From contig CAMCFA010000024.1 in NCBI GenBank assembly GCA_945873955.1, positions 1 to 35,209 on the forward strand: a stretch of DNA of 35,209 nt. The letters run 5' to 3'. This stretch comes from an uncultured Clostridia bacterium. GTDB taxonomy: Bacteria; Bacillota; Clostridia; Oscillospirales; Ruminococcaceae. Positions within the stretch are counted from its first letter, which is position 1; each line of letters opens with the position of its first letter. The position numbers were made by a program, and so were the translations under genes. Shown in pieces: positions 2,295 through 26,548 of the stretch. The notes under the pieces are model-generated. The model was not told the DNA's origin. It ran no database searches and saw only the letters and a list, made by a program, of their open reading frames with translations.

Positions 2295-2326
2295 CAGTTC
2301 AGAAAAAATTGTGCTACATATAGCAC
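2279..2326 (+). repeat. Leader module copy 1 (T-rich stretch plus palindrome)
   Basis: A 21-bp T-rich stretch at 2279-2299 is identical to 3365-3385, and both are followed 11-14 nt later by the GTGCTA palindrome. Here the stretch doubles as the T-run of the integrase terminator. At 3365 there is no hairpin before it, so the second copy looks like a duplicated fragment of this one. Confidence 0.7.
2311..2326 (+). promoter_or_regulatory. Palindromic operator-like site 1
   Basis: Exact GTGCTACATATAGCAC: a 6-bp inverted repeat GTGCTA/TAGCAC around CATA. It lies 22 nt before the start of the micropeptide gene, just upstream of its AAAAGAGG ribosome binding site. Confidence 0.8.
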
Positions 2327-2348
2327 CAGACACAGAAAAGAGGTAACC

Positions 2349-2420
2349 ATGAAAGCCTTTTTCAAAGAAATAACACGTCTGATAATCTATCTGCTGACTA
2401 AAAAGAAGATGGACTGGTAA
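2349..2420 (+). CDS. 23-residue basic, hydrophobic micropeptide
   Basis: ATG at 2349 follows AAAAGAGGTAACC, a good ribosome binding site, and the frame ends at TAA 2418-2420. The peptide begins MKAFFKEITRLIIYLLTKKK and ends MDW: a short hydrophobic stretch flanked by lysines, compatible with an amphipathic membrane-associated helix. It lies directly downstream of palindromic site 1 and 15 nt before the exonuclease gene, so it is probably the first cistron of that operon. Function is unknown. It could simply be a leader peptide that couples translation to the exonuclease gene. The evidence is the start context and position only. Confidence 0.5.
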   Translation: MKAFFKEITRLIIYLLTKKKMDW

Positions 2421-2435
2421 CATAAGGAGGTCGCA

Positions 2436-3359
2436 ATGAAAAGTGAAAGATGGAACAGTTCATCGTCCCTGCTGCTATCTAAGCAGGAATTCCGTGACGA
2501 GCTGAAAACCGAACGACAGTGGGCAAAAGCGGGCTTTCTCGCCTTGTCCGAGGACTGCGGAAAAAAGCTGCGTCCTACAAGCTGGTCTACTGGCTCGATT
2601 GATACACTCCCCCGCTATCTTCTTCCGGAGGAAGTCAGAACTGCGAGTGCAGATGAGCTGGCAGCATACTTTCAGCCGGAACGCGAACGAAAGGCAGCCA
2701 AAGCCGCAGAACGCAGAGCAAAACTCAGGATAGAGCGCGAAAGAGAAAAGGAACAGGCTCGATTACTCCGTGCAATGGCTGAGCAGCAGGACAAAGTTCA
2801 CACTATTGCACAATCCGTTGACCTGACTCCTGAAACATTTGGCGGTATCGTGATAGATACAGAAACAACTGGTCTGTACGCAGGAGAAGATGAAATATTG
2901 CAGCTCTCCATAATCAGCGAAAACGGAGAAAAGCTATTCGACAGTTATTTCCGTCCGCTGCATAAAACGTGGCAAGAAGCGCAAGCAGTAAATCATATAA
3001 CCCCGGAAATGGTGGCAGACGCACCGAGCATAGCTGATAGAGCTGCTGAAATCCAGCGGATAATAAACTCCGCAGATAAGATTATCGGCTACAACACATA
3101 TTTTGACGTGAATTTCATAAGCGCCGCCGGGCTGATTATCCCAGAGCGAGCAGAAATCATTGATATAATGCCCATGTTTGCGGAAATCTTCGGCGAATGG
3201 AGTGAGAGCCACGGTGATTACAAGTGGCAGAAGCTCACGACCTGCGCTGAGTACTTCCGTTTTGACTGGAGCAGCATGAAAGCTCATGACAGTCTTGCAG
3301 ACTGCTTTGCAACGCTGCATTGCTACAAGAAAATTATGACAAGCAAGACGAACGAGTAA
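2436..3359 (+). CDS. DEDDh 3'-5' exonuclease (DnaQ-like) with a coiled-coil N-terminal region
   Basis: Predicted 3'-5' exonuclease of the DNA polymerase III epsilon-like superfamily, 307 residues. The exonuclease domain spans about 135-302: ExoI motif with Asp141 and Glu143 (IDTETTGLY), ExoII around IIGYNTYFDVNFI with the conserved Asp, and ExoIII with His284 and Asp289 (HDSLAD), so all metal-binding residues are present. Residues about 75-125 are rich in Arg, Lys, Glu and Ala and look like a charged coiled coil. The first 75 residues are not recognised. The start follows ATAAGGAGGTCGC. Many Firmicutes elements carry such a nuclease; trimming or repair of transferred single-stranded DNA is an inference. 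No polymerase gene is nearby. It is probably co-transcribed with the upstream micropeptide from the site-1 leader. Confidence 0.88.
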   Translation: MKSERWNSSSSLLLSKQEFRDELKTERQWAKAGFLALSEDCGKKLRPTSWSTGSIDTLPRYLLPEEVRTASADELAAYFQPERERKAAKAAERRAKLRIEREREKEQARLLRAMAEQQDKVHTIAQSVDLTPETFGGIVIDTETTGLYAGEDEILQLSIISENGEKLFDSYFRPLHKTWQEAQAVNHITPEMVADAPSIADRAAEIQRIINSADKIIGYNTYFDVNFISAAGLIIPERAEIIDIMPMFAEIFGEWSESHGDYKWQKLTTCAEYFRFDWSSMKAHDSLADCFATLHCYKKIMTSKTNE

Positions 3360-3364
3360 ATCTA

Positions 3365-3410
3365 AGGGATTTTTCTTTTTCAGTTTTGAATAATGTGCTA
3401 CATATAGCAC
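3365..3410 (+). repeat. Leader module copy 2 (T-rich stretch plus palindrome)
   Basis: Positions 3365-3385 repeat 2279-2299 exactly and are followed by the palindrome at 3395. No hairpin precedes this T-run, so it does not look like a working terminator for the exonuclease gene. Confidence 0.7.
3395..3410 (+). promoter_or_regulatory. Palindromic operator-like site 2
   Basis: Exact GTGCTACATATAGCAC. Unlike most copies it lies far (121 nt) from the next start codon, at 3532, with hairpins in between. Confidence 0.8.
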
Positions 3411-3454
3411 AACAATTCCCTCTGCCACAGAGGTTCACATATATTTCTCCCTGA

Positions 3455-3478
3455 GAACGCAGCTTAACGGCTGCGTTC
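3455..3478 (+). other. Leader hairpin upstream of the XRE gene
   Basis: GAACGCAGC (3455-3463) pairs perfectly with GCTGCGTTC (3470-3478) around TTAACG. A weaker hairpin (CCCCT/AGGGG, 3491-3504) follows. The 5' arm shares GAACGCAGC with the second hairpin of the structured RNA at 7303-7359, but the rest of that architecture is not evident here. No T-run follows, so it is not a typical terminator. Confidence 0.55.
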
Positions 3479-3531
3479 GATGTCAACCCTCCCCTATCAA
3501 GGGGTAAAAAATAGTAAAGGAGCATTACACT

Positions 3532-3813
3532 ATGTTTGCAAACCGAACAAAATCAGGAAGAGCCAACATTGTTGGCATTAATATCGCCAGAATGCGAAAG
3601 CAGCTCAAACTCAGCCAGAGAGAGGTTGCCGACAGGCTTACGGCGATAGGTCTTACCATTGACAAAAACGCTATACAGCGCATGGAAAGCGGATCGCGCT
3701 TTATCACCGACATTGAGCTGATCTATATCGCAAAACTGTTCTCTGTTTCAGTTTCAGCTCTCTTCATCTATGAGCCTATTCCTGATGAAGTCAAGCTCAA
3801 CACAAATGAATAA
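3532..3813 (+). CDS. XRE-family DNA-binding regulator
   Basis: A 93-residue protein consisting almost entirely of one Cro/C1-type helix-turn-helix: NIARMRKQLKLSQREVADRL forms helices 1-2 and the turn, and DKNAIQRMESGSRFI the recognition helix (about residues 18-75). It ends in a short hydrophobic tail (SALFIYEPIPDEVKL). The start follows AAAGGAG. Small single-HTH proteins of this class act as dimers on palindromic operators and often control ICE gene switches (established for the class). It is therefore one candidate to bind the GTGCTACATATAGCAC sites, one of which (3395) lies in its own leader; this is inference. It is separated from both neighbours by structured leaders, so it may be monocistronic. 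Confidence 0.88.
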   Translation: MFANRTKSGRANIVGINIARMRKQLKLSQREVADRLTAIGLTIDKNAIQRMESGSRFITDIELIYIAKLFSVSVSALFIYEPIPDEVKLNTNE

Positions 3814-3844
3814 TTTTGGTTAATCGCTCTTCTGAGCTTTTAAC

Positions 3845-3905
3845 AGCACGGCAAGGGTAGCTCCCTAAAGGGCGGTTCTTCCTCTTTCACCGCCCTGCCC
3901 GTGCT
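3845..3905 (+). ncRNA. Candidate structured RNA, copy B (three-way junction)
   Basis: An outer helix AGCACGG (3845-3851)/CCGTGCT (3899-3905) encloses hairpin 1, AGGG (3854-3857)/CCCT (3863-3866) with pentaloop TAGCT, and hairpin 2, AGGGCGGT (3869-3876)/ACCGCCCT (3889-3896). The same order of helices, with pentaloop CAGCT and compensatory changes, occurs at 7303-7359. Both end 20-27 nt before a palindromic site and a start codon. I do not recognise the family. It may be a cis-acting leader or a small RNA. Confidence 0.55.
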
Positions 3906-3932
3906 TATATTACTTGAAAGAGGACTTACGTT

Positions 3933-3948
3933 GTGCTACATATAGCAC
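3933..3948 (+). promoter_or_regulatory. Palindromic operator-like site 3
   Basis: Exact GTGCTACATATAGCAC, 22 nt before the ATG at 3971 and followed by GGAAAGAAAGAGGT, which serves as ribosome binding site. A TTGAAA (3914-3919) lies 17 nt upstream of the TACATA inside the palindrome, so the site may overlap a TGC-extended -10 element. Confidence 0.8.
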
Positions 3949-3970
3949 GGAAAGAAAGAGGTAAATTATT

Positions 3971-4777
3971 ATGGCAGTTTCGTTGACTAAGAAGCCACTT
4001 ATGCGTGAGTACACTCCGGAACACATACGCAGCGAGGAGGAAACGCTCCCGCCAAAGCTCAAAGAATACACACCGGAACACATTGCGGTCGAGTCTGCAC
4101 CGCAGCCTTTAACTAAGAATTATAGCGTTGAAGATCCGGCTTGTTCCGGCTCAAACAATGTTGAAGTTATAAATTCTGATTTAACCGTTCTTGACAAAGA
4201 GCAGCTCTGCTGCATGATGAAAAACACTACAAATGAGATTTATGTTCTCTATAATAAAATCGAAAAACTGACCGCCGAAGCAGAACGCCGTGCAAAAGAC
4301 GATGGTTATTGGAATGAGAACTACTTTGGGAATGTAGGCTATTTCCATGAAAAGGTCGGTATAAAAATATCAAAAGCTCACCGAAGATATAAGCGCCGCC
4401 ACTTAATGGATTGGCTTACAATGGAAACGTTAAAAAAAATATCCGGGATAATCATTGCAATCTCAACAATCGTATTCTCGATGAATATTCTAATCACTTT
4501 TTTGAACAGAGATCCATATCCAGAAACGTCAGCAATAATGGAAGTAACCACAGGAACGATAAACAGCAAGGAGAGTTCCAACGGTCATTTTCACCTGTGG
4601 GTGGATACAGAAGCTGATTATGATGGCAAGAAACTTAATGCTCAAAAATGCTATTGTGTCCCCGAAGAAGTCTATCTAGCTGTTTCTGTTGGAGATAACT
4701 TTGACGGCAGCGAATACAAAGTCGAGAACTTATCCACCAGTAACATGGATATTTTTAGGGGCTGGATCAACAGATAA
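3971..4777 (+). CDS. Single-pass membrane protein of unknown function (A)
   Basis: 268 residues, family not recognised. The N-terminal cytoplasmic part contains two copies of EYTPEHI (residues 13-19 and 32-38), followed by a charged helical region (about 75-145) ending in the very basic KAHRRYKRRH. One transmembrane segment spans about 156-178, and a C-terminal domain of about 90 residues follows. The positive-inside rule places that domain outside the cell. The stretch HIAVESAPQP resembles HIAYEPAPQE in the membrane protein at 6924, and both proteins begin with MAV, suggesting a shared N-terminal sorting or interaction tag. It lies downstream of the structured RNA and site 3, with 20 nt to the next gene, so it heads a three-gene operon with the two regulators that follow. 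Confidence 0.75.
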   Translation: MAVSLTKKPLMREYTPEHIRSEEETLPPKLKEYTPEHIAVESAPQPLTKNYSVEDPACSGSNNVEVINSDLTVLDKEQLCCMMKNTTNEIYVLYNKIEKLTAEAERRAKDDGYWNENYFGNVGYFHEKVGIKISKAHRRYKRRHLMDWLTMETLKKISGIIIAISTIVFSMNILITFLNRDPYPETSAIMEVTTGTINSKESSNGHFHLWVDTEADYDGKKLNAQKCYCVPEEVYLAVSVGDNFDGSEYKVENLSTSNMDIFRGWINR

Positions 4778-4797
4778 TCAGAACGGAGGTAGCGGTA

Positions 4798-5328
4798 ATG
4801 ATTAATGAAAATAAATCGAAAGGAATTGCCTGCCCTTTCTGCGGGAAAAGCCCAGTTTATGGTACGTTCGTTACGTCATTCTATTATAGGAAAGAACACG
4901 AGTTGTTCGATAATGGCATAGGCATGGAATGTGCGAATTCTTTCACAGACTTATATGGCGAACCTATTGAGGAAATAACTAATCCGTCCATAAAGCTGAC
5001 AAGCTGCCGCTGTGCTTCTTGCGGAAAAAGGTGGTTATCCTGCGACTACACGCTTGTAAAAGACGAAAACGGTATCTACTCGTTTGAAAAACGGGATAAA
5101 ATATCCGAAAAAACCAAAAGCACAGTCTATGACCAGCTAATCAAACTCTGCAAAGAACGAGGAATAAAACCTTCACCATTACTGAGGTCTTTAGGACTAA
5201 GCGCTACGAACTTAAAGAGATGGCAGGACGGTTCAACAATTAATTCCGATATTCTTGAAAAGCTCGCCGAGTGCTTTGGAGTTTCTGTGAATTATTTCTT
5301 GGCAGATGATGAATTAAGGAGGACGTAA
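4798..5328 (+). CDS. Zinc-ribbon protein with C-terminal HTH
   Basis: 176 residues. The N-terminal part carries CPFCGKSP and CRCASCGKRW, four or five cysteines spaced as in a zinc ribbon. The C-terminal 65 residues form an XRE-like helix-turn-helix (LIKLCKERGIKPSPLLRSLG, then LSATNLKRWQDGS). That HTH resembles the third HTH of the 6081 protein (LIFLLEERGITKNKLLTDL), so the two are probably paralogous modules. The start follows AACGGAGGTAGCGGTA. The stop overlaps the next start by one base (TAATG), indicating translational coupling. A transcription regulator or a nucleic-acid-binding adaptor is likely; its target is unknown. Confidence 0.78.
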   Translation: MINENKSKGIACPFCGKSPVYGTFVTSFYYRKEHELFDNGIGMECANSFTDLYGEPIEEITNPSIKLTSCRCASCGKRWLSCDYTLVKDENGIYSFEKRDKISEKTKSTVYDQLIKLCKERGIKPSPLLRSLGLSATNLKRWQDGSTINSDILEKLAECFGVSVNYFLADDELRRT

Positions 5329-6038
5329 TGGAAGAATTATCTGAAATCAAGTCACTAGCGGAGTCAAATATCGGCTCTGAGTATCCATTAAATCTGCTGG
5401 ACGCAGTTGACAGCGATAACGTTTGGCAGTATCCAGTTCCTGCCGATATTAACGGAACAGTAGAATATCTCTTACATACATTTCTTTCTCAGAGAGAGAA
5501 CAATATTCTGCACCAGCGGTTTAAGCTGTGCAAAACATACGCAGAAATCGGCGAAATATATCAGATTACAGGGGAGCGAGTCCGCAAGATAGAGGAAAAA
5601 GCTCTGAACAGATTGCGTAGTCCGGGGTGTATGAAATACTTGCAAAATGGCATTTACAAAGCAACGCAAATAGATATAAACAATGCCGCTGAGCAGGCGG
5701 TTTCTGCGGAAATTTCAACCGCCGTTGCATATCTCAGAGAATTGCTCATTAACAAAACGAATTTCTTGGATGAACGTCCTGTTATAGTGACAGCAAAAAC
5801 AGAAATTGAGGATTTAAACTTATCCGTCCGCTGTTACAATTCCGTAAAACGTGCCGGAATAAATAAGGTCGGTGACCTTGAAAAAATCACGTTTCGGGAA
5901 TTACGGCTTATTCGCAATCTTGGCAAGCACTCCCTGGACGAACTTATTGGAAAACTCGCCGAACAAGGTGTTGCATTTCAAGAGGAAACAGACCCCGATG
6001 AAAAAATAGTGCTTCAAAGAGCGCCTATCATTGGCTAA
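5328..6038 (+). CDS. Fusion of a sigma-factor region 4-like HTH and an RNA polymerase alpha C-terminal-like domain
   Basis: 236 residues with two parts that recall RNA polymerase. Residues about 53-105 (LSQRENNILHQRF, then YAEIGEIYQITGERVRKIEE) match sigma-70 region 4, the helix-turn-helix that reads the -35 element. Residues about 157-212 (EDLNLSVRCYNSVKRAGI, then LRLIRNLGKHSLDELIGKL) match the helix-hairpin-helix alpha-CTD that binds UP elements and activators. Sigma regions 2 and 3 are absent, so it cannot act as a normal sigma factor. A role as an element-encoded activator or polymerase appropriator is inference. It overlaps the preceding gene by one base and is followed by site 4. Domain recognition is good; function is unproven. 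Confidence 0.8.
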   Translation: MEELSEIKSLAESNIGSEYPLNLLDAVDSDNVWQYPVPADINGTVEYLLHTFLSQRENNILHQRFKLCKTYAEIGEIYQITGERVRKIEEKALNRLRSPGCMKYLQNGIYKATQIDINNAAEQAVSAEISTAVAYLRELLINKTNFLDERPVIVTAKTEIEDLNLSVRCYNSVKRAGINKVGDLEKITFRELRLIRNLGKHSLDELIGKLAEQGVAFQEETDPDEKIVLQRAPIIG

Positions 6039-6049
6039 ATACGCGAAAT

Positions 6050-6065
6050 GTGCTACATATAGCAC
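6050..6065 (+). promoter_or_regulatory. Palindromic operator-like site 4
   Basis: Exact GTGCTACATATAGCAC, 15 nt before the ATG at 6081. The ribosome binding site GGAGGAAGG abuts the palindrome. TTGGCT (6031-6036) lies 17 nt upstream of the internal TACATA. Confidence 0.8.
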
Positions 6066-6080
6066 GGAGGAAGGAATACT

Positions 6081-6884
6081 ATGTCAAAACTTAAGTTTGG
6101 TGAGCGTATTCGAACCGTTCGCAAAAACGCAGGGTGTAGTCAAAAGGAGTTTTGCTCGTTTCTTGATATACCACAGTCAACGCTGTCAGCATACGAAACG
6201 GATAGAATGCAGCCGACTGTTGCTACTCTCGTACATATTGCGACAAAATTCAACGTATCACTCGATTGGCTTTGCGGCATTGACAAGCTGCACACAAGCA
6301 CTTATTTGGACAATAAGTCAATTGGGCTGCGAATAAAGGCGCTGCGCCTTGAGCGTGGGCTTACTCAATCCGATTTTGCTAAGTTGATTGGAAAGGCGCT
6401 CCGAACGGTTCAGAAATACGAGAAAGGCGAGATTGAAATCGCCCTATCAACAGCAAATGAAATCGCGCAGGCTATGGGCGTGTCCGCAGCCTATCTTCTC
6501 GGTAATGATGAACACACGGCAGCAGCTCCCCCACCTATGGTGTTTTACGACAAGCTCATTTTCCTTTTAGAAGAACGTGGTATAACCAAGAACAAGCTGC
6601 TGACGGACTTACATCTCAACAGGAACTCTTTCGGGAACTGGCAAAAGCAAGGCTCAAAGCCCAGAGCTGAAACGATGGAAAGGCTTGCGGAATACTTTGA
6701 GGTAACTCCCGAAAGCCTATCCAAAGACAACACAGAATTAAAATATCTTCCGACAGCAAGAAAATTTCTTGCGCTGGAAGCTCCGCCAACTATTAAGCTC
6801 AAAGGCAAGAATTTCACCGCAGAGATACCCGCTTACATTTTTAACGAGCTTATGTCGGTTCTTCTTGAAAAACTGAAAGACTGA
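6081..6884 (+). CDS. Regulator with three tandem XRE-type HTH domains
   Basis: 267 residues. HTH 1 spans about 6-66 (RIRTVRKNAGCSQKEFCSFL, then IPQSTLSAYETDRMQP). HTH 2 spans about 80-140 (RIKALRLERGLTQSDFAKLI, then ALRTVQKYEKGEIE). HTH 3 spans about 155-215 (LEERGITKNKLLTDL, then NSFGNWQKQGSKPRAETMER). The last 50 residues are a short tail. Single-HTH proteins are common, whereas three in one chain is unusual and could allow one molecule to bridge several operator half-sites. With site 4 directly before its own gene, it is a plausible binder of the element-wide palindrome (inference). The start follows CGGAGGAAGG. Monocistronic or co-transcribed with 6924. Confidence 0.85.
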   Translation: MSKLKFGERIRTVRKNAGCSQKEFCSFLDIPQSTLSAYETDRMQPTVATLVHIATKFNVSLDWLCGIDKLHTSTYLDNKSIGLRIKALRLERGLTQSDFAKLIGKALRTVQKYEKGEIEIALSTANEIAQAMGVSAAYLLGNDEHTAAAPPPMVFYDKLIFLLEERGITKNKLLTDLHLNRNSFGNWQKQGSKPRAETMERLAEYFEVTPESLSKDNTELKYLPTARKFLALEAPPTIKLKGKNFTAEIPAYIFNELMSVLLEKLKD

Positions 6885-6888
6885 AATT

Positions 6889-6904
6889 GTGCTACATATA
6901 GCAC
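6889..6904 (+). promoter_or_regulatory. Palindromic operator-like site 5
   Basis: Exact GTGCTACATATAGCAC, starting 4 nt after the stop of the triple-HTH gene and ending 19 nt before ATG 6924. The upstream flank CTGAAAGACTGAAATT is nearly identical to that of site 7 (7380). Confidence 0.8.
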
Positions 6905-6923
6905 GGCAAGAAAGAGGTATAAT

Positions 6924-7292
6924 ATGGCTGTCAATCTTGAAAAAGAAAGTATCCAGCGCAGCTCACTTTCTTCAGCGCCCGAAAAGCTGCCCAGCGACAC
7001 TACCAAACATATAGCTTACGAGCCTGCTCCTCAAGAACAGGGCGCTGATATTGATGTGTATGACCTGCTTTTTGTAGGCTTAATGAGTGCGTTATATATT
7101 CTTATAGGGCATTTCATGCCAGCACTTCTTGGACTGGCATTTCCAGATGCACTTGATGCAGAGGAGTGTGTGGCGTTTGTTAATGCCTGTCGTATATTAC
7201 TTATGTGGATTGGTTCTTTTGGTGTATTCATATCAGTTTGGTCTTACACTTACGAAAAAATTGTGACACATATAGCACGGAAAGAAAGATAA
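6924..7292 (+). CDS. Two-pass membrane protein of unknown function (B)
   Basis: 122 residues. An N-terminal cytoplasmic tail of about 42 residues contains HIAYEPAPQE, similar to protein A at 3971. Two transmembrane segments follow (about 45-70 and 86-108), with a short basic tail ending HIARKER. The ribosome binding site is AAAGAGG. The last ten codons are read straight through a degenerate copy of the palindrome (7263-7278), whose GTGACACATATAGCACGG encodes VTHIAR, so the stop probably moved into an older leader module. No family is recognised. A role next to the par genes or regulators cannot be assigned. Confidence 0.7.
   Translation: MAVNLEKESIQRSSLSSAPEKLPSDTTKHIAYEPAPQEQGADIDVYDLLFVGLMSALYILIGHFMPALLGLAFPDALDAEECVAFVNACRILLMWIGSFGVFISVWSYTYEKIVTHIARKER
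7263..7278 (+). promoter_or_regulatory. Palindromic site 6, degenerate
   Basis: GTGACACATATAGCAC differs from the consensus at two adjacent positions in the left arm (CT to AC), which breaks the dyad. It lies inside the 3' end of the membrane protein B gene. It retains the common downstream flank GGAAAGAAAGA, so it appears to be a decayed copy of the leader module. Confidence 0.65.
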
Positions 7293-7302
7293 CAGGCAAA
7301 TA

Positions 7303-7359
7303 ATCGGGATAAAGGCAGCTCCTTGAACGCAGCAACAGCCTGCTGTGTTCCGTCCCGAT
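7303..7359 (+). ncRNA. Candidate structured RNA, copy C (three-way junction)
   Basis: An outer helix ATCGGGA (7303-7309)/TCCCGAT (7353-7359) encloses hairpin 1, AAGG (7312-7315)/CCTT (7321-7324) with pentaloop CAGCT, and hairpin 2, GAACGCAGCA (7325-7334)/TGCTGTGTTC (7341-7350) with one G-U pair. The helix order matches 3845-3905, and hairpin 1 shows a G-C to A-U covariation with the same YAGCT loop. It lies between two palindromic sites in the leader of the par operon. Confidence 0.55.
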
Positions 7360-7379
7360 AAAACTGAAAGGCTGAAATT

Positions 7380-7395
7380 GTGCTACATATAGCAC
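7380..7395 (+). promoter_or_regulatory. Palindromic operator-like site 7
   Basis: Exact GTGCTACATATAGCAC, 20 nt before the parA ATG. It is followed by CGAAAGAAAGAGG, which supplies the ribosome binding site. The upstream flank matches that of site 5. Confidence 0.8.
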
Positions 7396-7415
7396 CGAAA
7401 GAAAGAGGAACAAAT

Positions 7416-8180
7416 ATGATTTCAATAGCAATGTACAACAATAAGGGCGGCGTCGGTAAAACCACCTCCGTAATTAACGTATCGCAGCAGCTTGCGCTAA
7501 AGGGCAAGACGGTACTGGTCGTTGACCTTGACGGTCAGGCGAACAGCTCACGCTTCTTCACGGACAGCCCGAAACCGGGACTTGCTCAAGCTCTGGTCAA
7601 GGACATGGTTGCTCCCGAAATAGCCAAGTGCAGCACCAGATACCCGAACATTGACATAATCACAGCTACGTCCGAACTGAACACAATTATTCCGGAGTTT
7701 GGCGCATTAGATGAGGAAGTCCAGTATAAGAGGGTCGAAAAAATATTTTCTTTTTCAGAAAAGCCGTGGTATGGCGGAAGAAAATACGACTATATGCTGA
7801 TAGATATGCCCCCGGCGCTCAATGCTCTAACAAAGACTATTCTCAGCACCAGCGATTATGTATTTGTACCTATCGAGCTGGGATTGTTCTCAATTCAAGG
7901 CATACCAACAGTCACGGACATAATCAGTCGCTGCGGAACAAAATTCGGCGGCTGCTTTGCAAACAGGTTTGATAAGGACAACCCCTCGGACGTGCAGCTC
8001 CTTGATATGCTGCGCAGCAACCTCGGCAAAAAAGCTATGGACAGCGTAATCCCATACAGCCGGGTAATTAAGAACTCGATAAATTTCAGCGTTTCCGCTG
8101 CGGAATATATGAACTGGACATCGGCGTCCGACAGCTTTAAAAAGCTGACAGATGAGATTCTGGAAAGGGTCGGTGAGTAA
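7416..8180 (+). CDS. parA: ParA/Soj-type partition ATPase
   Basis: 254 residues. The deviant Walker A motif NNKGGVGKTT (residues 8-17) follows immediately after the start, then VVDLDGQANSS and a Walker B-like YMLIDMPPAL, as in small chromosomal-type ParA proteins. ParA binds DNA non-specifically in its ATP form and with ParB segregates replicons. In ICEs it stabilises the excised or replicating form (established for the family). The ATG at 7416 is chosen because AAAGAGG lies 7-13 nt before it; an upstream GTG at 7380 would lie inside the palindrome. The stop is followed within two bases by the start of the membrane protein gene, and ParB lies one gene further, so this is a par operon under site 7. 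Confidence 0.93.
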   Translation: MISIAMYNNKGGVGKTTSVINVSQQLALKGKTVLVVDLDGQANSSRFFTDSPKPGLAQALVKDMVAPEIAKCSTRYPNIDIITATSELNTIIPEFGALDEEVQYKRVEKIFSFSEKPWYGGRKYDYMLIDMPPALNALTKTILSTSDYVFVPIELGLFSIQGIPTVTDIISRCGTKFGGCFANRFDKDNPSDVQLLDMLRSNLGKKAMDSVIPYSRVIKNSINFSVSAAEYMNWTSASDSFKKLTDEILERVGE

Positions 8181-8181
8181 T

Positions 8182-8796
8182 ATGTATATTAAGTATGCCG
8201 ACAGAAAAAAGATATGCGAAAAACTTGCCGCCTACCGTGTTGGCGAAATCGTTGCAGTTCTTACAGATACCGAATGTGAAGATGGCTTAATCGAAGCTCA
8301 AACTAAACTCACGATTACAAGTATCAAAATAAGAGATAACATATTTGTTCCTGAAATACTTGAAAATCAGCTGAGCAATTACGTTTCAGACTGTGACGAA
8401 TACAATTTCATATACACACTAACCCCTATCGACTCTACTCCGGCTGGGATTTATGATTTCAGCTCAAGCGAATTCGTAAGGGCTGACGAGTTTGTCGGCA
8501 AAGACTTTCACAGCATATACAGAGCAAAGGAAAAGAGAAGAAAAAGGGCTGCTGCTAAGTACTGGGGAAAAGTTGTCTTGCTTTTGGCAGCTGGGTTCAT
8601 ATCATACACGGCTATAATATCGCTCTTATTGTTACCGATATTTTGGATATGTGAGATACCTTTCTTCACAGCTCCTTTTCCGGCATTGGGTATAGCTTTT
8701 TTTGCAATGCTATTCTCAATGCTTAGTGAAAAAATCACAGGAACTTTTACAAAGCTCACAACAAACCACTGCATAGACAAAAGAAAGGACAGATAA
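8182..8796 (+). CDS. Membrane protein of unknown function inside the par operon
   Basis: 204 residues. A cytoplasmic N-terminal domain of about 120 residues is not recognised. A basic stretch (KEKRRKRAAAKYWGK) is followed by two or three hydrophobic segments (about 127-165 and 167-188), giving a membrane hairpin with a short charged tail. ATG 8182 is preferred over the in-frame upstream ATG at 8152 because GGTCGGTGAG lies just before it and the longer form would overlap parA by 29 nt. Its place between parA and parB, four nt before parB, is unusual for a partition locus. It might tether ParA/ParB or the element DNA to the membrane or to the mating channel, but this is speculation. Confidence 0.75.
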   Translation: MYIKYADRKKICEKLAAYRVGEIVAVLTDTECEDGLIEAQTKLTITSIKIRDNIFVPEILENQLSNYVSDCDEYNFIYTLTPIDSTPAGIYDFSSSEFVRADEFVGKDFHSIYRAKEKRRKRAAAKYWGKVVLLLAAGFISYTAIISLLLLPIFWICEIPFFTAPFPALGIAFFAMLFSMLSEKITGTFTKLTTNHCIDKRKDR

Positions 8797-8800
8797 AGGA

Positions 8801-9874
8801 ATGGGTAAGTTCACATTTAACACGTCAATAGGAATGGACATGAAAGCTGCGTCAGCCGACAGCTTTGTTGATAACATACAGATGATCGAATTTTCGGAAA
8901 TCAAGCAGAACAAGGACAATTTCTACACACTCTCGGAGCTGGAACTGCTGGCAGATGATATCGAACGTCAGGGACTTAAGCACAACCTTGTTGTGTGCAA
9001 GGACAGCGCCGGGTCTGGATACTGGCTCATCAGCGGACACCGGAGATACTCCGCCATTAAGCTGCTCATCGAGCAGAACAGGCTGAAAAGCACCCTTGTT
9101 CCCTGCTACGTTGACGGTGAACGCACTCAGGCTGAAGCGCGGCTTAACCTCATCATGCTGAACGCTACGCAGCGTAAATACACTGACGCCGAAACAATGG
9201 CAGAATATGAAATGCTCAAGCAAACCATTCAGCAGCTTGAGGACGAGGGCAAGCCCGTCAAGGGACGTATCCGCGATTTGATTGCTACAACGCTGAACAT
9301 ATCTCCCGCACAGGTCGGTAAGATTGAGAATATCAAGCACAATGCAATTGATGAGGTACACGAAGCCGTCAAGGATGGCAAAATGTCCATATCCACCGCA
9401 AACGAGGTGGCAAAGCTCACGCCGGAGAAGCAGCAGGAGATACTCACCAGAAAGCCAACCAGCGAAATCACTCACAAGGAAGTCAAGGAGATACAGAAAC
9501 AAACAGCGCCGAAACCGCAGAAATCAACAAATGAAATTCCGGACGAAACAGATGACGAGTCTGATACTGACGAGCCGGAATATATCAGACCGGACGTTAC
9601 CGAAGCTGCACCGTCCCCTGCTCCATCTGTTCCTGTTTTAGAAAAGAAGCCGGTATTCACGTCTGAAAAAAAGAACGAGAGCAAATCGGCTTCACCGGAT
9701 CTGAAAAAGATTACCGATACACTGGAGCTGACTGCGGTTGAGATTGCTGCACTTCATCAATATATTGATGACCTGTATAATAATCTTGATTGCGATGATG
9801 AAAACGAGGACACAATACTGGGCATAAGTATCAAAATTGACTGCTTTCTCACGAAACATGGAATTGAAACGTAA
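8801..9874 (+). CDS. parB: ParB/Spo0J-family partition protein
   Basis: 357 residues. The N-terminal ParB/sulfiredoxin-type domain (about 25-125) includes the phosphate-binding GHRR motif (LISGHRRYSAI, near residues 78-84), followed by a central helix-turn-helix region (about 150-215: RDLIATTLNISPAQVGKIEN). An acidic, proline-rich linker (about 230-300) leads to a C-terminal helical domain probably used for dimerisation. ParB spreads from centromere-like parS sites and stimulates ParA (established). No classical parS repeat was recognised in this window; the dispersed GTGCTA palindromes are one possible but unproven target. The start follows AAAGGA with tight spacing. Confidence 0.9.
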   Translation: MGKFTFNTSIGMDMKAASADSFVDNIQMIEFSEIKQNKDNFYTLSELELLADDIERQGLKHNLVVCKDSAGSGYWLISGHRRYSAIKLLIEQNRLKSTLVPCYVDGERTQAEARLNLIMLNATQRKYTDAETMAEYEMLKQTIQQLEDEGKPVKGRIRDLIATTLNISPAQVGKIENIKHNAIDEVHEAVKDGKMSISTANEVAKLTPEKQQEILTRKPTSEITHKEVKEIQKQTAPKPQKSTNEIPDETDDESDTDEPEYIRPDVTEAAPSPAPSVPVLEKKPVFTSEKKNESKSASPDLKKITDTLELTAVEIAALHQYIDDLYNNLDCDDENEDTILGISIKIDCFLTKHGIET

Positions 9875-9880
9875 GCGGTA

Positions 9881-9909
9881 TTGACACACCTTGTCGTTTG
9901 TGGTATAAT
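9881..9909 (+). promoter_or_regulatory. Perfect consensus promoter of the lipoprotein gene
   Basis: TTGACA (9881-9886), 17-nt spacer, TATAAT (9904-9909) preceded by TGG, an extended -10. It has no palindromic site. This predicts strong, probably constitutive expression independent of the rest of the element. Confidence 0.92.
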
Positions 9910-9955
9910 ATAGGAGCATTATTTTAATGCCAATATTTGTTTATGAGGTGATTTT

Positions 9956-11092
9956 ATGAAATCAAAATTTTTCTTTTCAGCCTTGCCTGTCCTGTTTGCG
10001 GGAGCAACTCTCTTGACCGCCTGCTCCACAAGACCGACAATCGATTTTGAACAGTGCGTGACGGTAGATTTTACGGGTTACGAGGACGAGGGAAGAGTGG
10101 TAATTCATACTGACAACGACTACATACTGTCGCTGCTCGGAGATATGAACACGCTATCTGCTACCAGCCTGCTGAGCAGCTTTTCAATTGACGCAGTTGA
10201 GAACAATGGCGAATTGTCCAACGGCGACGTGGTAACTGTCATAGTAAACACAAATCAAACAGCCCTTGATAATGCAAAGGTAAACGTAAAGAACACAGAG
10301 CTTCATTTTACAGTAGAGGGTCTGGAAGAAAAGCCGAAGCTTGATGTGTTTGCAGATGTTTCGCTGTCAGTCACCGGTGCTTCACCCTATTGCAAGGTAT
10401 CCGCTGAATATAGCGGCGATCAGTGGCTATCTGGTTATTCATTCAATATTACAAGTGTTGACGGAGAACAGAAAGAATACTACCAGAACGGCGATAAGGT
10501 CATAATCTCACTTACTCAGGACGCACTTGACAGCTTGAAGGACAAAGGAAATATAGAAGAAACATCGCGTGAATTCACCATTCAGTCTGACAGCGCATAC
10601 ATTCTTTCTGCTGCTGATCTGACCGCCGACAATATGACAGCGTTCAGAGCAGAAATAGACGAGTATCTTAACAGCAAGATCAACGATCTGCTGAACAATT
10701 CAGACAACACGTCGAAATGGAACGTTATTTCTGGCGTATCAGGTATAAACTCCGGTGCGCTTGCTGCAAGCAGCTGTGGTATAACAGGAATAGAGAATGT
10801 GGAGTATAATTCCGCCTATGCTGGCGTTGCAAAAGAAAAAGGTGCGTTCGGTAATATCAAAGAATATAAATACGCATACATTTTTTATAACGCTGATATA
10901 TCCTACTTTGCAAACTCAGGTTTTTCAAAAAAAGAGGATACGGTTAACGGAGCGTTTATAGTACGTGTCACTGACCCTATGATAACCGCCAGCGGAGAAA
11001 TCACCTACACTGACATATCCCTCGGAGCGAAAAGCGATCTCCAGACAGCCATTAACGATAGGATAACTGAGAATTTCAGCAAGTTATCCTGA
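9956..11092 (+). CDS. Secreted lipoprotein of unknown function
   Basis: 378 residues. A lipoprotein signal peptide (MKSKFFFSALPVLFAGATL) ends in lipobox LTAC with Cys23 as the lipidation site, so the protein is anchored on the outer face of the membrane. The remainder is rich in Ser, Asn, Asp and Thr and probably beta-structured. Two regions begin with similar short patterns (VTVDFTGYEDEGRV and SLSVTGASPYCKV), possibly repeated beta-sandwich domains. No enzyme motif is seen. It has its own consensus promoter and a terminator, separating it from the par operon and the transfer operon. A strongly expressed surface lipoprotein on an ICE could act in entry exclusion or mating-pair stabilisation, but nothing in the sequence proves this. 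Confidence 0.8.
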   Translation: MKSKFFFSALPVLFAGATLLTACSTRPTIDFEQCVTVDFTGYEDEGRVVIHTDNDYILSLLGDMNTLSATSLLSSFSIDAVENNGELSNGDVVTVIVNTNQTALDNAKVNVKNTELHFTVEGLEEKPKLDVFADVSLSVTGASPYCKVSAEYSGDQWLSGYSFNITSVDGEQKEYYQNGDKVIISLTQDALDSLKDKGNIEETSREFTIQSDSAYILSAADLTADNMTAFRAEIDEYLNSKINDLLNNSDNTSKWNVISGVSGINSGALAASSCGITGIENVEYNSAYAGVAKEKGAFGNIKEYKYAYIFYNADISYFANSGFSKKEDTVNGAFIVRVTDPMITASGEITYTDISLGAKSDLQTAINDRITENFSKLS

Positions 11093-11114
11093 CTTAGAAA
11101 AAAATATGTACCTA

Positions 11115-11150
11115 AAGCCGATTGCTAAAAGTGATCGGCTTATTTATTTT
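11115..11150 (+). terminator. Terminator of the lipoprotein gene
   Basis: AAGCCGAT (11115-11122) pairs with ATCGGCTT (11134-11141), followed by ATTTATTTT. Site 8 begins at the next base. Confidence 0.75.
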
Positions 11151-11166
11151 GTGCTATATGTAGCAC
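11151..11166 (-). promoter_or_regulatory. Palindromic operator-like site 8, inverted orientation
   Basis: GTGCTATATGTAGCAC is the exact reverse complement of the other copies: arms are the same and the core CATA becomes TATG. It lies 23 nt before ATG 11190. The inverted copy argues for a DNA-level protein site. Confidence 0.8.
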
Positions 11167-11189
11167 AATCACATTAAGGAGGTAAACCT

Positions 11190-11252
11190 ATGCCAATGTC
11201 GGACGAGCTTGCCGGCGCAACGCTCAATTACAGCCAAAAGCTATGGAGATAG
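11190..11252 (+). CDS. Short frame carrying the likely true start of the DUF3801 protein (frameshifted)
   Basis: ATG 11190 has a perfect site TAAGGAGGTAAACCT, and the 20-residue frame MPMSDELAGATLNYSQKLWR ends at TAG 11250-11252. The following gene starts at ATG 11243 in the -1 frame without any ribosome binding site. A -1 shift at CCAAAAG (11234-11240) would join NYSQK to AMEIAAELVK, giving a smooth helical N-terminus. It may be a programmed frameshift, a genuine mutation, a sequencing error in the AAAA run, or a coupling leader peptide. Confidence 0.55.
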   Translation: MPMSDELAGATLNYSQKLWR

Positions 11253-12598
11253 CAGCGGAACTTGTCAAAATGATAACACCCGCTATACGAACCGGAGCAG
11301 AGAAGCTGATAAACATTGCAACAAAATCCGAAACAGAAATAGCGGGTACAGTAAACAGGTCATCTTTATTTGTTGAAGCCAAAAAAGAAAGCTGCAATAT
11401 CCTTTCCACCTCCAACTTTATTGATACTGATGTGGACAAAATTGCTGCGAAAGCGAAAGAGTACCATATTCCGGTTTCGTTTATCGGCAATGACGGAAAG
11501 CAGACGATGGAATTTCTTTCCCGTGACGAGTCTGTCATCAATCAAATAGTACAAGATATTATGCAGGAACGCCTGCAAGAAGCGCCGCAGAATATCAAGT
11601 CGTTTGCTGTGAGTGAGGGAAATGTCGCTGCCGTAAAGGAACAGCTTGAAAAGAATGGTGTGGAATGCCAGTTTGTCCAGAGCGCCAACGGAAAGATATA
11701 CTGTATGTATCCTGCCGGAGAAGCCGAAAAGGTGGCGGCAATCAAACAGGATTTTAAGCAAATGCAAACAGACGTTGCAGAGAAATTCAAGGTATCGAGG
11801 AATACCAGCGGTATTGCCGTAATGGAGGACGCAAAGCTCGGTAAGAGTATTTCATTTGTTAATGAGAAAAAACAGCCCTTGACAAAATCCCATGTTATGG
11901 AGGTAATGCAAGAGCAGTTCGGTTATTCCAAAGCTGAAGCCAACCTTGCTGCAAATAAACTGTGTGATGAGCTGAACCTCGAACATTCTCAATTCCTCGC
12001 CCACAATGAGCAGTTAGAAATCATAAATTCGTTTAACACCAACATAAAATTCCGGAACGACAGCATACTGCTTAAGGACACAACATTTACCTCTGTCAAT
12101 TTCAAGGGTGGCAGCGGAACACATATCTTCATAACTAACGGCGATAAGAAAGCTGCATTATCTCCAGCAACAATGTCCGAAACAGAGATGATGAAAATAT
12201 GCACAACCACTCTTGGAATGAATGAGGAACAGGCTGCCGAAGCTGTTAGCAAAGCGAAGAAAATTGACGAGCAAATCAACGCAAAGCTGCACCAAACCAC
12301 TATTTACCGAAATGACGGTGTGCAGCAGGTCGAAATTGAGCGCAAATCAAAAAATTCTTTTTCAGTCCGGGTAGGAAATACCGAAAAGGAATATGATTTT
12401 GCTGACCCAAATCTGGCGGCGAAGCTGAGCAAGGACTTTGGCATTACCGAGGGCAAGGCGAATAACATTATTGACCATGCTCAAAAGCAAAGCGCCCTAA
12501 TGAACCGGGTCGAGAAAGCGTTTAATAAAACTGCGAAATCAGTCAAAGAAAAGACTGAAAAAACCGTCAAAGATGTCAGCAAAGGGGTTAAGCGATGA
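11243..12598 (+). CDS. DUF3801 (PcfB-like) conjugation accessory protein
   Basis: 451 residues. The region around residues 30-140 (KIAAKAKEYHIPVSFIGND, then QTMEFLSRDESVINQIVQDI) matches DUF3801, a family whose member PcfB is an accessory protein of the relaxosome and coupling protein in Gram-positive transfer systems (established by family). It continues with three or four weaker repeats of an alpha/beta unit, including one at about 195-240 and one at about 300-345. A lysine-rich C-terminal tail (NKTAKSVKEKTEKTVKDVSK) follows. It lies directly before the coupling protein gene and overlaps it by ATGA, the usual gene order. The start is uncertain: ATG 11243 lacks a ribosome binding site, whereas a good one serves ATG 11190 in another frame. 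Full-length protein may begin at 11190 through a frameshift. Confidence 0.78.
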   Translation: MEIAAELVKMITPAIRTGAEKLINIATKSETEIAGTVNRSSLFVEAKKESCNILSTSNFIDTDVDKIAAKAKEYHIPVSFIGNDGKQTMEFLSRDESVINQIVQDIMQERLQEAPQNIKSFAVSEGNVAAVKEQLEKNGVECQFVQSANGKIYCMYPAGEAEKVAAIKQDFKQMQTDVAEKFKVSRNTSGIAVMEDAKLGKSISFVNEKKQPLTKSHVMEVMQEQFGYSKAEANLAANKLCDELNLEHSQFLAHNEQLEIINSFNTNIKFRNDSILLKDTTFTSVNFKGGSGTHIFITNGDKKAALSPATMSETEMMKICTTTLGMNEEQAAEAVSKAKKIDEQINAKLHQTTIYRNDGVQQVEIERKSKNSFSVRVGNTEKEYDFADPNLAAKLSKDFGITEGKANNIIDHAQKQSALMNRVEKAFNKTAKSVKEKTEKTVKDVSKGVKR

Positions 12599-14726: not shown

Positions 14727-14742
14727 GTGCTACATATAGCAC
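14727..14742 (+). promoter_or_regulatory. Palindromic operator-like site 9
   Basis: Exact GTGCTACATATAGCAC, 5 nt after the coupling protein stop and 66 nt before the pilin-like gene. A related AT-rich string, TGTACATATATCA, lies at 14774-14786 between site and gene. Confidence 0.8.
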
Positions 14743-15234: not shown

Positions 15235-15267
15235 TAACCCTAACAACCATATGATAAGCTTGAAACT

Positions 15268-15303
15268 AGCTGTGCCTATGTGCTACATATAGCACAGCTT
15301 TTT
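15268..15303 (+). terminator. Terminator-like hairpin after the pilin gene, with a palindrome inside
   Basis: AGCTGTGC (15268-15275) pairs with GCACAGCT (15292-15299), extended by TAT/ATA, and is followed by five T residues (15299-15303). Palindromic site 10 (15280-15295) shares the 3' arm, so the two helices exclude each other in RNA. Confidence 0.75.
15280..15295 (+). promoter_or_regulatory. Palindromic operator-like site 10
   Basis: Exact GTGCTACATATAGCAC, 38 nt before the VirB6-like gene and embedded in a terminator hairpin. TTGAAA (15260-15265) lies 18 nt upstream of the internal TACATA. Confidence 0.8.
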
Positions 15304-23795: not shown

Positions 23796-23798
23796 TAT

Positions 23799-26519
23799 AT
23801 GTATTTTTTCAGAGTTGAGTTAAGCAGCTTTGATGATGAAAAGAAAGTAATATTCCTCATTCCCGATCAGACGGATACGGACGAAAACGGCGCTCCGTTT
23901 CAGGAAAAGCTGCTGACTAATTCGCCCAAGTACAAGGAATTCGTTAAGGAAACCAAAACGTCTGTGGTTGATGTTTCCTACACCGTCTACGAAACTTCAG
24001 CTCCGATCACCGGGGAAATTACCGATGAATACTTTTCCCAGATGGAGCAGGACGGTGCGCTGATAGCCCATGACAGCAACGAGTTCAGCATAACCACCGG
24101 GAAAACGTCTAAATCCGGTGGTAAGAGCAATTTGAAAATGTATGCGATTTTCGGAGTAATCGCCGCTGTTTTCATTGGGCTTATAATTGCTTCAACCGCC
24201 GCGGGGAATGGTGGGAATACCGTATCCGAAACAACAGAAGCAACGTCTGAGGTCACTCAGGAAAGCAGTACAGCAGAATCTCTTGAACCCACCACAGATG
24301 TGATTATCGAACCGACTGCCGAATCATTACCGGAAACCTCCGAAAATTCCGGTTTTGTTGATACTCCACCTGAACAGACCACTGAGGAGGAAACTGCCCC
24401 GGCTGATACCTCCGAACCAGTCGAAGCGGTCAGCAGTTCAGGCGGTGCAGCAAGCAGCGGGAAGTCTGAATATACAATTTCATTCCATGCAAACGGCGGC
24501 GAGGGTACTTTGGACAGCATTTCCTCTGAACCCGGACAATATGTTGTGCTGCCCTCTGCTGAAAGCGCCGGGAAGATCCTCTCAAAACAGGGATATAAGC
24601 TGATAGGCTTTTCCGATAATGTTGAGATAAACTATCCTCTGTACGACTACAAAATGCCCTCCCGTGATATTACGCTTTATGCGGTATGGGAGCCTGAAAC
24701 ATATACCGTAACCTATAACAGCAACGGCGGTACAGGCACTCTTTCACGCACAGAGGTCAAATATGGAGATGACGTACCATTACCGACTGACGTTTCAATC
24801 TATAATGACGAGCTGATACTTGCGGGGTGGAATTCATCTTCCAAAGCCAAATCTGCGCTTAAATCCCTTACTATGCCGGCTGAGGATATAACTCTCTACG
24901 CTGTTTGGAGCGACAAAAAGCCGACTGCAACGGTTACGCTGCATTATGACGATAACATAATGGTTATGGAAAAGGAAATCGGCACTACGCTCAATATGCT
25001 GAACGATTTCGGCGTAACCAAAGAGGATTATATCGTAGCCGGGTGGTACTTTGACGGTTCGCCAAAGCGCATTGAATATCTGAGTGTTGACGGGGACTGT
25101 GACGTATATGCGAAATGGAAAAGTGCTACATATATCACAATTACCGTTGACCGCAGCTACCTCAATAAGCCTGCCGAAAAGTTCAAATTACCGCTTGATA
25201 TGACGGGTACTGCAAAGTTCACTACTCCGGCAGTAAATAACCCGGAGGATATTTATAACCATGTTTTCGGCTGTACCTACGGATTTTCAACTAAGCAGCC
25301 AACTGGTCAGTTTGGAACTATTGAGTATTACAGCGATACCGAATATGGATTTTCCAAAGATACAACCCTATACCGGGTGCTGAACAAGTACGGCGGCGGA
25401 AAGGGTACAGAGAAAAATCCGTATATCATTGACCGCTATGACCAGCTTATATACCTTGCTGAGAACGGGGCAAGCGGTTACTTTAAGCAGACCGCTGACA
25501 TAGTATTCCCTAATACGGCAGAAAGAAAGCCCATAAATACTCCGGTAATTTCAGTAGGTTATGAGAATAAATACTACAACCATTTTGTGTATGACGGGCA
25601 AAATTTCACCATAAAGGGACTGAAAGGCGAGGGCGGTCTGTTCGGAACGCTGGCAGCAAGCACGATAAAGAATGTCCGCATTACCGGAGCAAAAATCACC
25701 TCCGGCGGTAACAACTGCGGCGTTCTTGTGAATGAGGTTACTTCGTATGTCTTTGATGACGAAAGCAGCTCGAATAAATTCACTACCGGGAATACGCAGA
25801 TACTTAACTGCACCGTATCTGACAGCACGGTATCAGCAGACAAGAGTACCGATTTCATGGGCGGTATAGTCGGCTACGGCGGCATAATCAAAGACTGCTT
25901 TGCAAACTCGATAACACTAAAAGGCAACAGTTCCATTTCCGTTGCAGCAGCGGGTGGTATAGTAGGTAATGCCTGCACGGTCAAAGCCTGCCTTGCCAAT
26001 GGCGTGTCAGCCGACAGTTCGATCCTCTCCGCTGGAGGAATTGCTGGAACAGCATACGGCGTTGAACTGTATGAGAGCAGAGAAAAGGCAGATAAAATCG
26101 GCGGCAGCATTATCGGCTGCGGAGTGCGCACGTTCATTTCACGCGCCGAAAGCAGCGGTGGCATTGCCGGAACAACCACCTCTATAAACAATATGGCGTA
26201 TATAAAGAGCTGCTATGTCGCAAACATTGTGCTTAACGGCAAATACAATGGCAGCATTTCCGGCAGGGACGGAAACGAGAATTACCGCCACTCGATAGCA
26301 TACTGCATTGTAGATAACACGAATGGTTATAGCTTTATAGGCGGTGATAAGGTGCGCTCCGCAACTTCAACGATGGTTCTCAACGTTCCGGCAGACACAG
26401 GGTTGACAGTAGACGGTGTGCTTTCTGTACTCAACGCTTCCGGTAGCGGTTATTCCAGTTGGCAGCGCAGCAAGGATATTAACAGCGGGTATCCTTATCC
26501 CAGCGGTATCACATTCTAA
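23799..26519 (+). CDS. Surface protein with InlB-type B-repeats, anchored by an N-terminal membrane helix
   Basis: 906 residues, start 3 nt after the topB stop. A cytoplasmic N-terminal domain (about 1-110) leads to a transmembrane segment (about 113-133), then a Ser/Thr/Glu/Pro-rich stalk (about 135-215). Three Listeria-Bacteroides-type repeats follow (about 225-445), each ending in LYAVW or VYAKW and containing NGGEGTL or NGGTGTL. A linker leads to a C-terminal beta-helix-like region (about 520-890) with repeated GGI-type turns (GGIVGYGG, AGGIVGNA, AGGIAGTA, GGIAGTTT). The layout is that of an adhesin displayed outside the cell. Placed in the transfer operon, it may hold mating cells together (inference). 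An imperfect palindromic site (25123-25138) lies in the coding sequence. Confidence 0.85.
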   Translation: MYFFRVELSSFDDEKKVIFLIPDQTDTDENGAPFQEKLLTNSPKYKEFVKETKTSVVDVSYTVYETSAPITGEITDEYFSQMEQDGALIAHDSNEFSITTGKTSKSGGKSNLKMYAIFGVIAAVFIGLIIASTAAGNGGNTVSETTEATSEVTQESSTAESLEPTTDVIIEPTAESLPETSENSGFVDTPPEQTTEEETAPADTSEPVEAVSSSGGAASSGKSEYTISFHANGGEGTLDSISSEPGQYVVLPSAESAGKILSKQGYKLIGFSDNVEINYPLYDYKMPSRDITLYAVWEPETYTVTYNSNGGTGTLSRTEVKYGDDVPLPTDVSIYNDELILAGWNSSSKAKSALKSLTMPAEDITLYAVWSDKKPTATVTLHYDDNIMVMEKEIGTTLNMLNDFGVTKEDYIVAGWYFDGSPKRIEYLSVDGDCDVYAKWKSATYITITVDRSYLNKPAEKFKLPLDMTGTAKFTTPAVNNPEDIYNHVFGCTYGFSTKQPTGQFGTIEYYSDTEYGFSKDTTLYRVLNKYGGGKGTEKNPYIIDRYDQLIYLAENGASGYFKQTADIVFPNTAERKPINTPVISVGYENKYYNHFVYDGQNFTIKGLKGEGGLFGTLAASTIKNVRITGAKITSGGNNCGVLVNEVTSYVFDDESSSNKFTTGNTQILNCTVSDSTVSADKSTDFMGGIVGYGGIIKDCFANSITLKGNSSISVAAAGGIVGNACTVKACLANGVSADSSILSAGGIAGTAYGVELYESREKADKIGGSIIGCGVRTFISRAESSGGIAGTTTSINNMAYIKSCYVANIVLNGKYNGSISGRDGNENYRHSIAYCIVDNTNGYSFIGGDKVRSATSTMVLNVPADTGLTVDGVLSVLNASGSGYSSWQRSKDINSGYPYPSGITF
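25123..25138 (+). promoter_or_regulatory. Intragenic near-copy of the palindrome
   Basis: GTGCTACATATATCAC differs from the consensus at one position (G to T in the right arm). It lies within the surface protein gene, encoding part of SATYIT, far from any start codon. It may be chance or a silent remnant. Confidence 0.4.
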
Positions 26520-26532
26520 CTTACGGACAAAT

Positions 26533-26548
26533 GTGCTATATGTAGCAC
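26533..26548 (-). promoter_or_regulatory. Palindromic operator-like site 12, inverted orientation
   Basis: GTGCTATATGTAGCAC, the exact reverse complement of the main form and identical to site 8. It lies 24 nt before the ssb start. Confidence 0.8.

Follow-up and report, generated by a model that had tools for sequence, protein, structure and literature searches.

The stretch of DNA analysed here (the window, 35,209 nt) is contig CAMCFA010000024.1 of assembly GCA_945873955.1, from an uncultured Clostridia bacterium of the Ruminococcaceae, and holds an integrated element with genes for a ParA ATPase (7416-8180, + strand; AAA_31, E 1e-34) and a ParB-family protein (8801-9874, + strand), which are neighbours with one open reading frame (ORF) between them. 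The element also carries many copies of a 16-bp dyad, GTGCTACATATAGCAC, of which the ParB-family protein is the proposed binder and ParA the proposed partner. A scan of the window gave ten exact copies, eight on the + strand and two on the - strand, and two near copies, and recovered every copy and position listed in an earlier sequence-only reading of this DNA. When up to three mismatches were allowed, 23 strand-wise matches were found versus a mean of 0.18 (largest two) after shuffling, and none of 100 shuffles reached 23.

The dyad-bearing leaders span parA, the 11243/VirD4 genes, ORF 14809, a VirB6-like gene and ssb, and promoters are mostly not recognisable there. On the + strand, exact copies lie at 2311..2326 (22 nt 5' of a 23-aa ORF at 2349), 3395..3410 (121 nt 5' of the XRE gene 3532), 3933..3948 (22 nt 5' of ORF 3971), 6050..6065 (15 nt 5' of the triple helix-turn-helix (HTH) gene 6081), 6889..6904 (19 nt 5' of ORF 6924), 7380..7395 (20 nt 5' of parA), 14727..14742 (66 nt 5' of ORF 14809) and 15280..15295 (38 nt 5' of the VirB6-like gene 15334). 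The inverted copies, on the - strand, are found at 11151..11166, 23 nt 5' of an ATG at 11190 that opens a 20-aa ORF and 76 nt 5' of ORF 11243, and at 26533..26548, 24 nt 5' of ssb (26573). Both near copies are on the + strand: the one at 7263..7278 (two mismatches) overlaps the end of ORF 6924-7292 and has flanks like those of other leaders, and the one at 25123..25138 (one mismatch) lies within ORF 23799-26519 and may be a site inside a gene or a product of chance. The names 'pilin', for ORF 14809, and 'DUF3801' are those of the earlier reading, the Pfam matches being below cut-off.

All ten exact dyads are wholly intergenic, such 16-mer positions making up 2.9% of 1231-35209 (a chance estimate for ten out of ten treats the sites as independent), and ten of the 12 element gaps of at least 30 nt in this interval hold an exact dyad. 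Neither of the near copies can count as a simple leader site, given their overlap with ORFs, and what follows the copy at 2311 is the 23-aa ORF.

Across the whole genome the exact dyad occurs 15 times, ten times in the window and five times on contigs C54, C67 and C87. The copies on C54 adjoin a tyrosine integrase and a small HTH (excisionase-like) gene, those on C87 a serine recombinase with Mob_Pre, and those on C67 relatives of Mob_Pre and its partner genes, so that all 15 stand by mobile-element genes and the scatter away from mobile elements that would have spoken against the proposed regulon was not seen. The exact dyad was present in five of 396 genomes drawn from the family (reversed-pattern control: one of 396, G250), and the pattern GTGCTAYATRTAGCAC in 16 of the 43 genomes of the genus (control: 0/43). 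In G180 and G333 there are syntenic conjugative elements in which the dyad, either unaltered or differing at one or two positions, stands 5' of parA, the 11243/VirD4 genes, VirB6 and topoisomerase. Among sites with at most one mismatch, 65 of 93 have a Shine-Dalgarno sequence and a start within 90 nt, orthologous leaders included; the leader list has 92 rows at this threshold, with L120 3954 on both strands and L120 61 and 4631 (no start) left out. In viral contigs the pattern was found in 40 stretches, each with a single site except for one contig with two, which we took as chance without a calculation, and a search for ParB relatives gave no viral one. Plasmid records gave only ParBs below 60% identity (98 of 98 records), and a single scan of the genome contigs for ParB gave eight loci.

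The structural model of the ParB-family protein matches Noc, ParB and KorB, with the fold of an N-terminal domain plus an HTH DNA-binding domain. A profile search found eight Noc/ParB/Spo0J chain sequences (E 6e-6 to 8e-3), and a search with the DNA-binding half as profile gave no ParB chain. The motifs GHRR..A and N.TQR, which we take to be the CTP motifs, are invariant in 19 of 19 aligned ParBs.

With a ParB profile, 19 loci were found in 15 of the 43 genus genomes, giving 20 loci together with JAFULX, and repeated dyads were sought in these loci without an assumed sequence. This de novo search found a second dyad, GTGTCACNNGTGACAC, in place of the first in the elements of G399, G396 and G431 (contig C16). 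A third, TTGCCAYATRTGGCAA, was seen in those of G418 and G422, where it stands 5' of VirB6 and, in a degenerate form, 5' of topoisomerase. The second was present in five and the third in two of the 43 genus genomes (reversed-pattern controls 0/43 each), and all three dyads share one 16-bp frame. Counts over whole genomes used the strict pattern for the second dyad, and counts per locus used the arms GTGTCA/TGACAC with any core, which gives six rather than five for G431 C16. A dyad with exact arms is present at 16 of the 20 ParB loci, 14 of which hold the matching kind only; the two mixed loci are G431 C16, with six matching dyads and one other, and G333 C21, with one of each, where the second-kind match (core TACT) may be chance.

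The recognition helix of ParB differs with the dyad, reading S[PAS][AS]Q with the first, SNGQ with the second and SKSQ with the third (alignment A2). Residue 169, a P in the window's ParB and the first residue of helix 169-181 in its model, is the sole one of residues 1-232 that separates all three kinds (11, three and three sequences, among them the 206-aa partial ParB of L119, which was kept out of A2 and the trees). Genomes whose ParB has P, A or S at this position hold the first dyad in ten of ten cases versus six of 33 others (P about 4e-6), those with an SNGQ ParB hold the second in three of three versus two of 40, and those with K hold the third in two of three versus 0/40, all of these counts assuming an independence that related genomes do not have. 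R173 of Caulobacter ParB makes contact with parS and belongs to a set of four residues through which specificity is switched between parS and NBS (PMC7383237). We infer that residue 169 corresponds to it, by alignment of the motifs S-x-x-Q-V and S-R-x-H-V, the latter taken from one of the chain sequences given by the profile search, rather than by a residue-level structural alignment. Among close relatives, sequence comparison shows the dyad changing together with ParB and its residue 169.

Shared ancestry is less of a problem in two natural experiments. Genome G431 has, on contigs C16 and C20, elements whose ParA proteins are 98.8%, tandem-HTH proteins 86% and ParBs 62% identical, and whose dyads differ, C16 holding six of the second kind and one of the first and C20 three exact copies of the first. 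The lone first-kind dyad of C16 precedes parA, and its leader is almost the same as the one in C20. The sites in G431 follow ParB and not the HTH protein. The other case is G406, whose VirB4, VirD4 and VirB6 are 92%, 87% and 84% and whose ParB is 71-73% identical to those of G418/G422. It is nearest to G418 or G422 in eight of nine shared genes tested, VirD4 being nearly tied with G333 C21, and its ORF 11243 is nearer to G399 (74%) than to G418/G422 (72%). In the tree, the first-kind ParBs do not form one clade, since the ParB of G406 branches with the K group; despite this it has S rather than K at residue 169 and is accompanied by first-kind and not third-kind dyads, with the difference from G418/G422 seen at the VirB6 leader and, for the degenerate form, at the topoisomerase leader.

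These comparisons bear on the binders proposed by the sequence-only reading, namely the XRE protein 3532, the zinc-ribbon/HTH protein 4798 and the triple-HTH protein 6081, for any of which the dyad would be a repressor's operator. HTH genes do adjoin sites, 6081 has one in its own leader, several of the elements contain tandem-HTH relatives, and on mobilizable element L046 a gene related to the 4798 HTH part comes after a near-exact dyad. However, matches to 3532 and 4798 are missing from those syntenic G180 and G333 conjugative elements that were fetched and that share the exact dyad, the G431 pair combines its similar tandem-HTH proteins with different dyads that go with different ParBs, and G406 has the dyad and no tandem-HTH match at E 1e-10. 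We consider an operator of this kind unlikely, and 6081, as judged from these sequences, is an unlikely determinant of specificity. Because the G180 and G333 genomes each have a mobilizable element (L046, L047) with 61 aa that match the HTH part of 4798 at 70% identity, 4798 is an unlikely binder rather than one excluded by the data from these two genomes, and the case for ParB as the binder is very slightly weakened. ORF 6081-6884 itself contains several HTH domains. Several other loci of the genus match its first 65-70 residues at 76-88% identity but not the rest, which gives the first HTH the look of a shuffled module.

A second alternative is that the dyad acts as RNA, by a hairpin in the mRNA leader that controls translation or processing. 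A six-base stem and four-base loop just 5' of the Shine-Dalgarno sequence, and the many copies in operon gaps, would suit such a role, but sense pairing is kept in just three of ten one-mismatch copies (antisense four of ten), the centre of the GTGTCACNNGTGACAC kind is a free NN, and the dyad follows ParB; that no Rfam match at gathering score was found in the window says little. A hairpin is thus quite improbable, in line with the earlier preference for a DNA-binding protein.

We give even less weight to the dyad as a promoter element, an extended -10 used by a host sigma factor or by the sigma-region-4/alpha-CTD protein 5328-6038. It is true that TGC-TACATA reads as a weak extended -10 and that -35-like hexamers lie upstream at three sites, 17-18 nt before according to the earlier reading, but this arrangement does not generalise beyond the sites named there: in 57 distinct leaders, three and four have at least four -35 matches at the needed spacing versus zero to six elsewhere, which is no enrichment, and such an arrangement of hexamers is absent from the GTGTCAC and TTGCCA kinds. 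Moreover, 5328 has no match in 25 kb of the dyad-bearing G431 C20 and a 33% match on G431 C16. The further claim that genes with their own promoter lack the dyad is contradicted by a relative, L104, where the leader at 15449 has a perfect promoter (TTGACA-17-TATAAT) with its -10 ending 14 nt before a dyad, which puts the site just past the expected transcription start. As an observation in its own right, the product of 5328-6038 is an unusual two-domain regulator that combines sigma-70 region 4 (E 2e-12) with the C-terminal domain of RNA polymerase alpha (E 2e-19), and it has relatives in other genomes of the genus.

Overall, the pattern is real and more pronounced than the earlier reading stated. 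The dyads are most likely an element-wide set of protein-binding sites in gene leaders, read as DNA and not as RNA, and the comparisons make it highly probable that they are the binding sites of the element's own ParB (8801-9874).

Several observations weigh against this assignment. The protein scores 19.6 bits with Pfam ParB_N versus a cut-off of 26.3, and the NCBIfam parB models stay below cut-off as well. The ParB loci were chosen for holding parB, leaving the whole-genome counts as the only test of presence, and few of the elements are independent. For the residue-169 test, L113 (K) was counted with the K group although its 6 kb hold no dyad, and the dyad-less L102, L054 and L112 were left out. 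Two ParBs from another genus, in G181 and G372, have the helix SPAQVGKIENI, yet the exact dyad is absent from their genomes, and no repeated GTGCTA-like or other dyad was found in their fetched loci. G019, also of another genus, combines a ParB relative (38%) beside a ParA with TTGATAYATRTATCAA, which is present five times and at three places stands 20-30 nt 5' of start codons; this in itself speaks for ParB, but the helix SPAQVGKMQNV goes here with a different dyad. No dyad was found in G428 C16 (21 kb, SPAQ) or JAFULX (7 kb), and the ParB of G426, with N at 169 (SNVQ), had no dyad of its own in our search, its genome holding two first-kind dyads elsewhere. The core is TAAA instead of YATR in the sole site at G000's second parB (C2) and in one of the two G414 sites. 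Finally, five of 28 genomes without a detected ParB have the first dyad, one of them, G371, being 100% complete. Because G181/G372 and G019 share the SPAQ helix without the first dyad, the rule is local, and residue 169 is no code beyond close relatives.

As binder of the dyads, a ParB dimer would read the 16-bp dyad as DNA, as two half-sites in one 16-bp frame, and would probably close as a CTP clamp, as other ParBs do. ParA (7416-8180), ParB and about ten parS-like sites in operon leaders would then make up a ParABS system, which could prevent loss of the element from the cell line while it is excised or replicating, and ParB could autoregulate parAB. As a roadblock near promoters it could, in addition, lower the expression of the transfer operons, in the manner of KorB on RK2. 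On this analysis, partition through ParB and the dyads is likely and transcriptional control plausible.

A narrower form of the ParB explanation is that the dyads are partition sites only, a dispersed centromere without gene control whose intergenic position avoids coding sequence. Within gaps, the exact dyads lie no nearer to starts than to stops (mean relative position about 0.5, n=10), just seven of 87 distinct leaders have a promoter with at least nine of 12 consensus bases upstream of the site, and PMC10954446 describes for IncC R55 a comparable set of 14 scattered parS sites, mostly intergenic, made of a 22-bp repeat and with one site before parA. Against this, eight of the ten exact dyads end 15-38 nt before a start codon (counting the ATG at 11190, not 11243, for the copy at 11151), a clustering that has a P of about 0.01 (for distances of 10-40 nt, with the gaps taken as they are) and that recurs in other elements, and the site of L104 stands just after its perfect promoter. 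The clustered distances favour some role in expression, the positions within gaps are unbiased, and several leaders look mutually copied; a pure partition function is a distinct possibility, if well below an even chance. Of the candidate conjugation regulon proposed earlier, the element-wide dyads in gene leaders were borne out; a regulon of this kind is a possibility, but partition sites would account for the same data, and ParB-type proteins such as KorB of RK2 can serve in both roles. Tentatively, and not far short of an even chance, we would extend the ParB explanation to a KorB-like system, in which the partition protein would also be the master damper of transfer genes through operators in nearly every leader, specificity would be switched mainly at one residue and thereby insulate co-resident elements, and mobilizable parasites would adopt the dyad of the prevailing ParB.

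The leaders themselves show further features. The CATA core is oriented with the gene in eight of the ten exact window dyads (2311-15295 and relatives), which is odd for the site of a protein dimer and perhaps reflects copying of leaders. The leaders at 3933, 6889, 7263 and 7380 have common flanks beyond the dyad (tt on the 5' side and gaaagaaaga or similar on the 3' side), which suggests a duplicated module of dyad and Shine-Dalgarno sequence. The 23-aa ORF (2349-2420) has a Shine-Dalgarno sequence and lies between dyad and exonuclease gene, and the 20-aa ORF (11190-11252) lies 3' of the 11151 dyad; in L104 the corresponding ATG continues in frame into the ORF matching 11243. An ORF of at least 2,710 aa (27078-35209), which exits the contig end, has a promoter-like leader and no dyad. 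At L010 7561-7576, GTGCTATTTATAGCAC is followed by a T-run and looks like an intrinsic terminator with the same arms, and the same hairpin with T-run occurs on the minus strand of L127 at 3673. Repeats are also found by distant ParB relatives, with four copies of GTGTCAGAATCTGACAC at and after the 3' part of parB in L056 (5508-5950) and two of GTGTCCATTTGGACAC between parA and parB in L139 (18146, 18228).

Mobilizable elements carry these dyads too. Among loci with Mob_Pre relatives and no parB match, none holds both kinds. Those of G000, G180, G333 and G416 carry the first dyad, those of G431, G398 and G420 the second; these loci were fetched for holding a dyad, except for L132 (G000 C37), which has a Mob_Pre match and no dyad. 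A class match to a resident ParB was seen in G000, G180, G333, G416 and G431 only, ParB not being detected in G398 and G420, and G431 holds both ParB kinds. Mobilizable elements without parB would probably use the ParB of the conjugative element, and from their sequences the smaller hitch-hiking elements appear to have copied ParB sites.

Parallels exist in better known systems. KorB of RK2, a ParB-family protein, acts from 16-bp O_B sites and controls conjugative transfer genes (PMC11790492). The window shares with it the type of protein and the copies of a 16-bp site, transfer genes would be among those controlled, and its ParB model matches KorB, but the dyad is another one and the element is an integrated one of a Clostridia bacterium. 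SGI1 carries parS of its IncC helper (PMC10954446), and the R55/SGI1 pair resembles the present case in its many, mostly intergenic sites, one of them before parA, and in a mobilizable element with copies; it differs in its 22-bp repeat, whereas here a 16-bp dyad occurs in several specificity kinds in a single genus and homologous mobilizable elements carry different kinds. As in ParB/parS and Noc/NBS (PMC7383237), the site is palindromic and a small number of residues in the DNA-binding domain, including R173, would switch specificity, with the difference that here the series is natural, lies inside one element family and is known by comparison only. In ICEclc, too, a par-locus gene regulates transfer, as proposed here, but BisD (former ParB) acts in another manner, as an activator together with BisC (PMC7423338). 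Among the open-licence PMC papers listed in our literature searches, none describes such a system in such elements in its title or abstract opening, which does not prove that there is no such paper.

If true, these findings would provide ParB/site pairs within one element family where few residues change the DNA that is read. The evolution of ParB specificity, and the ways in which co-resident elements avoid cross-talk, could then be tested on natural material. Furthermore, Clostridia would join SGI1/IncC as a case of parS piracy by mobilizable elements, and in Clostridia elements the control of conjugation may be linked to partition.

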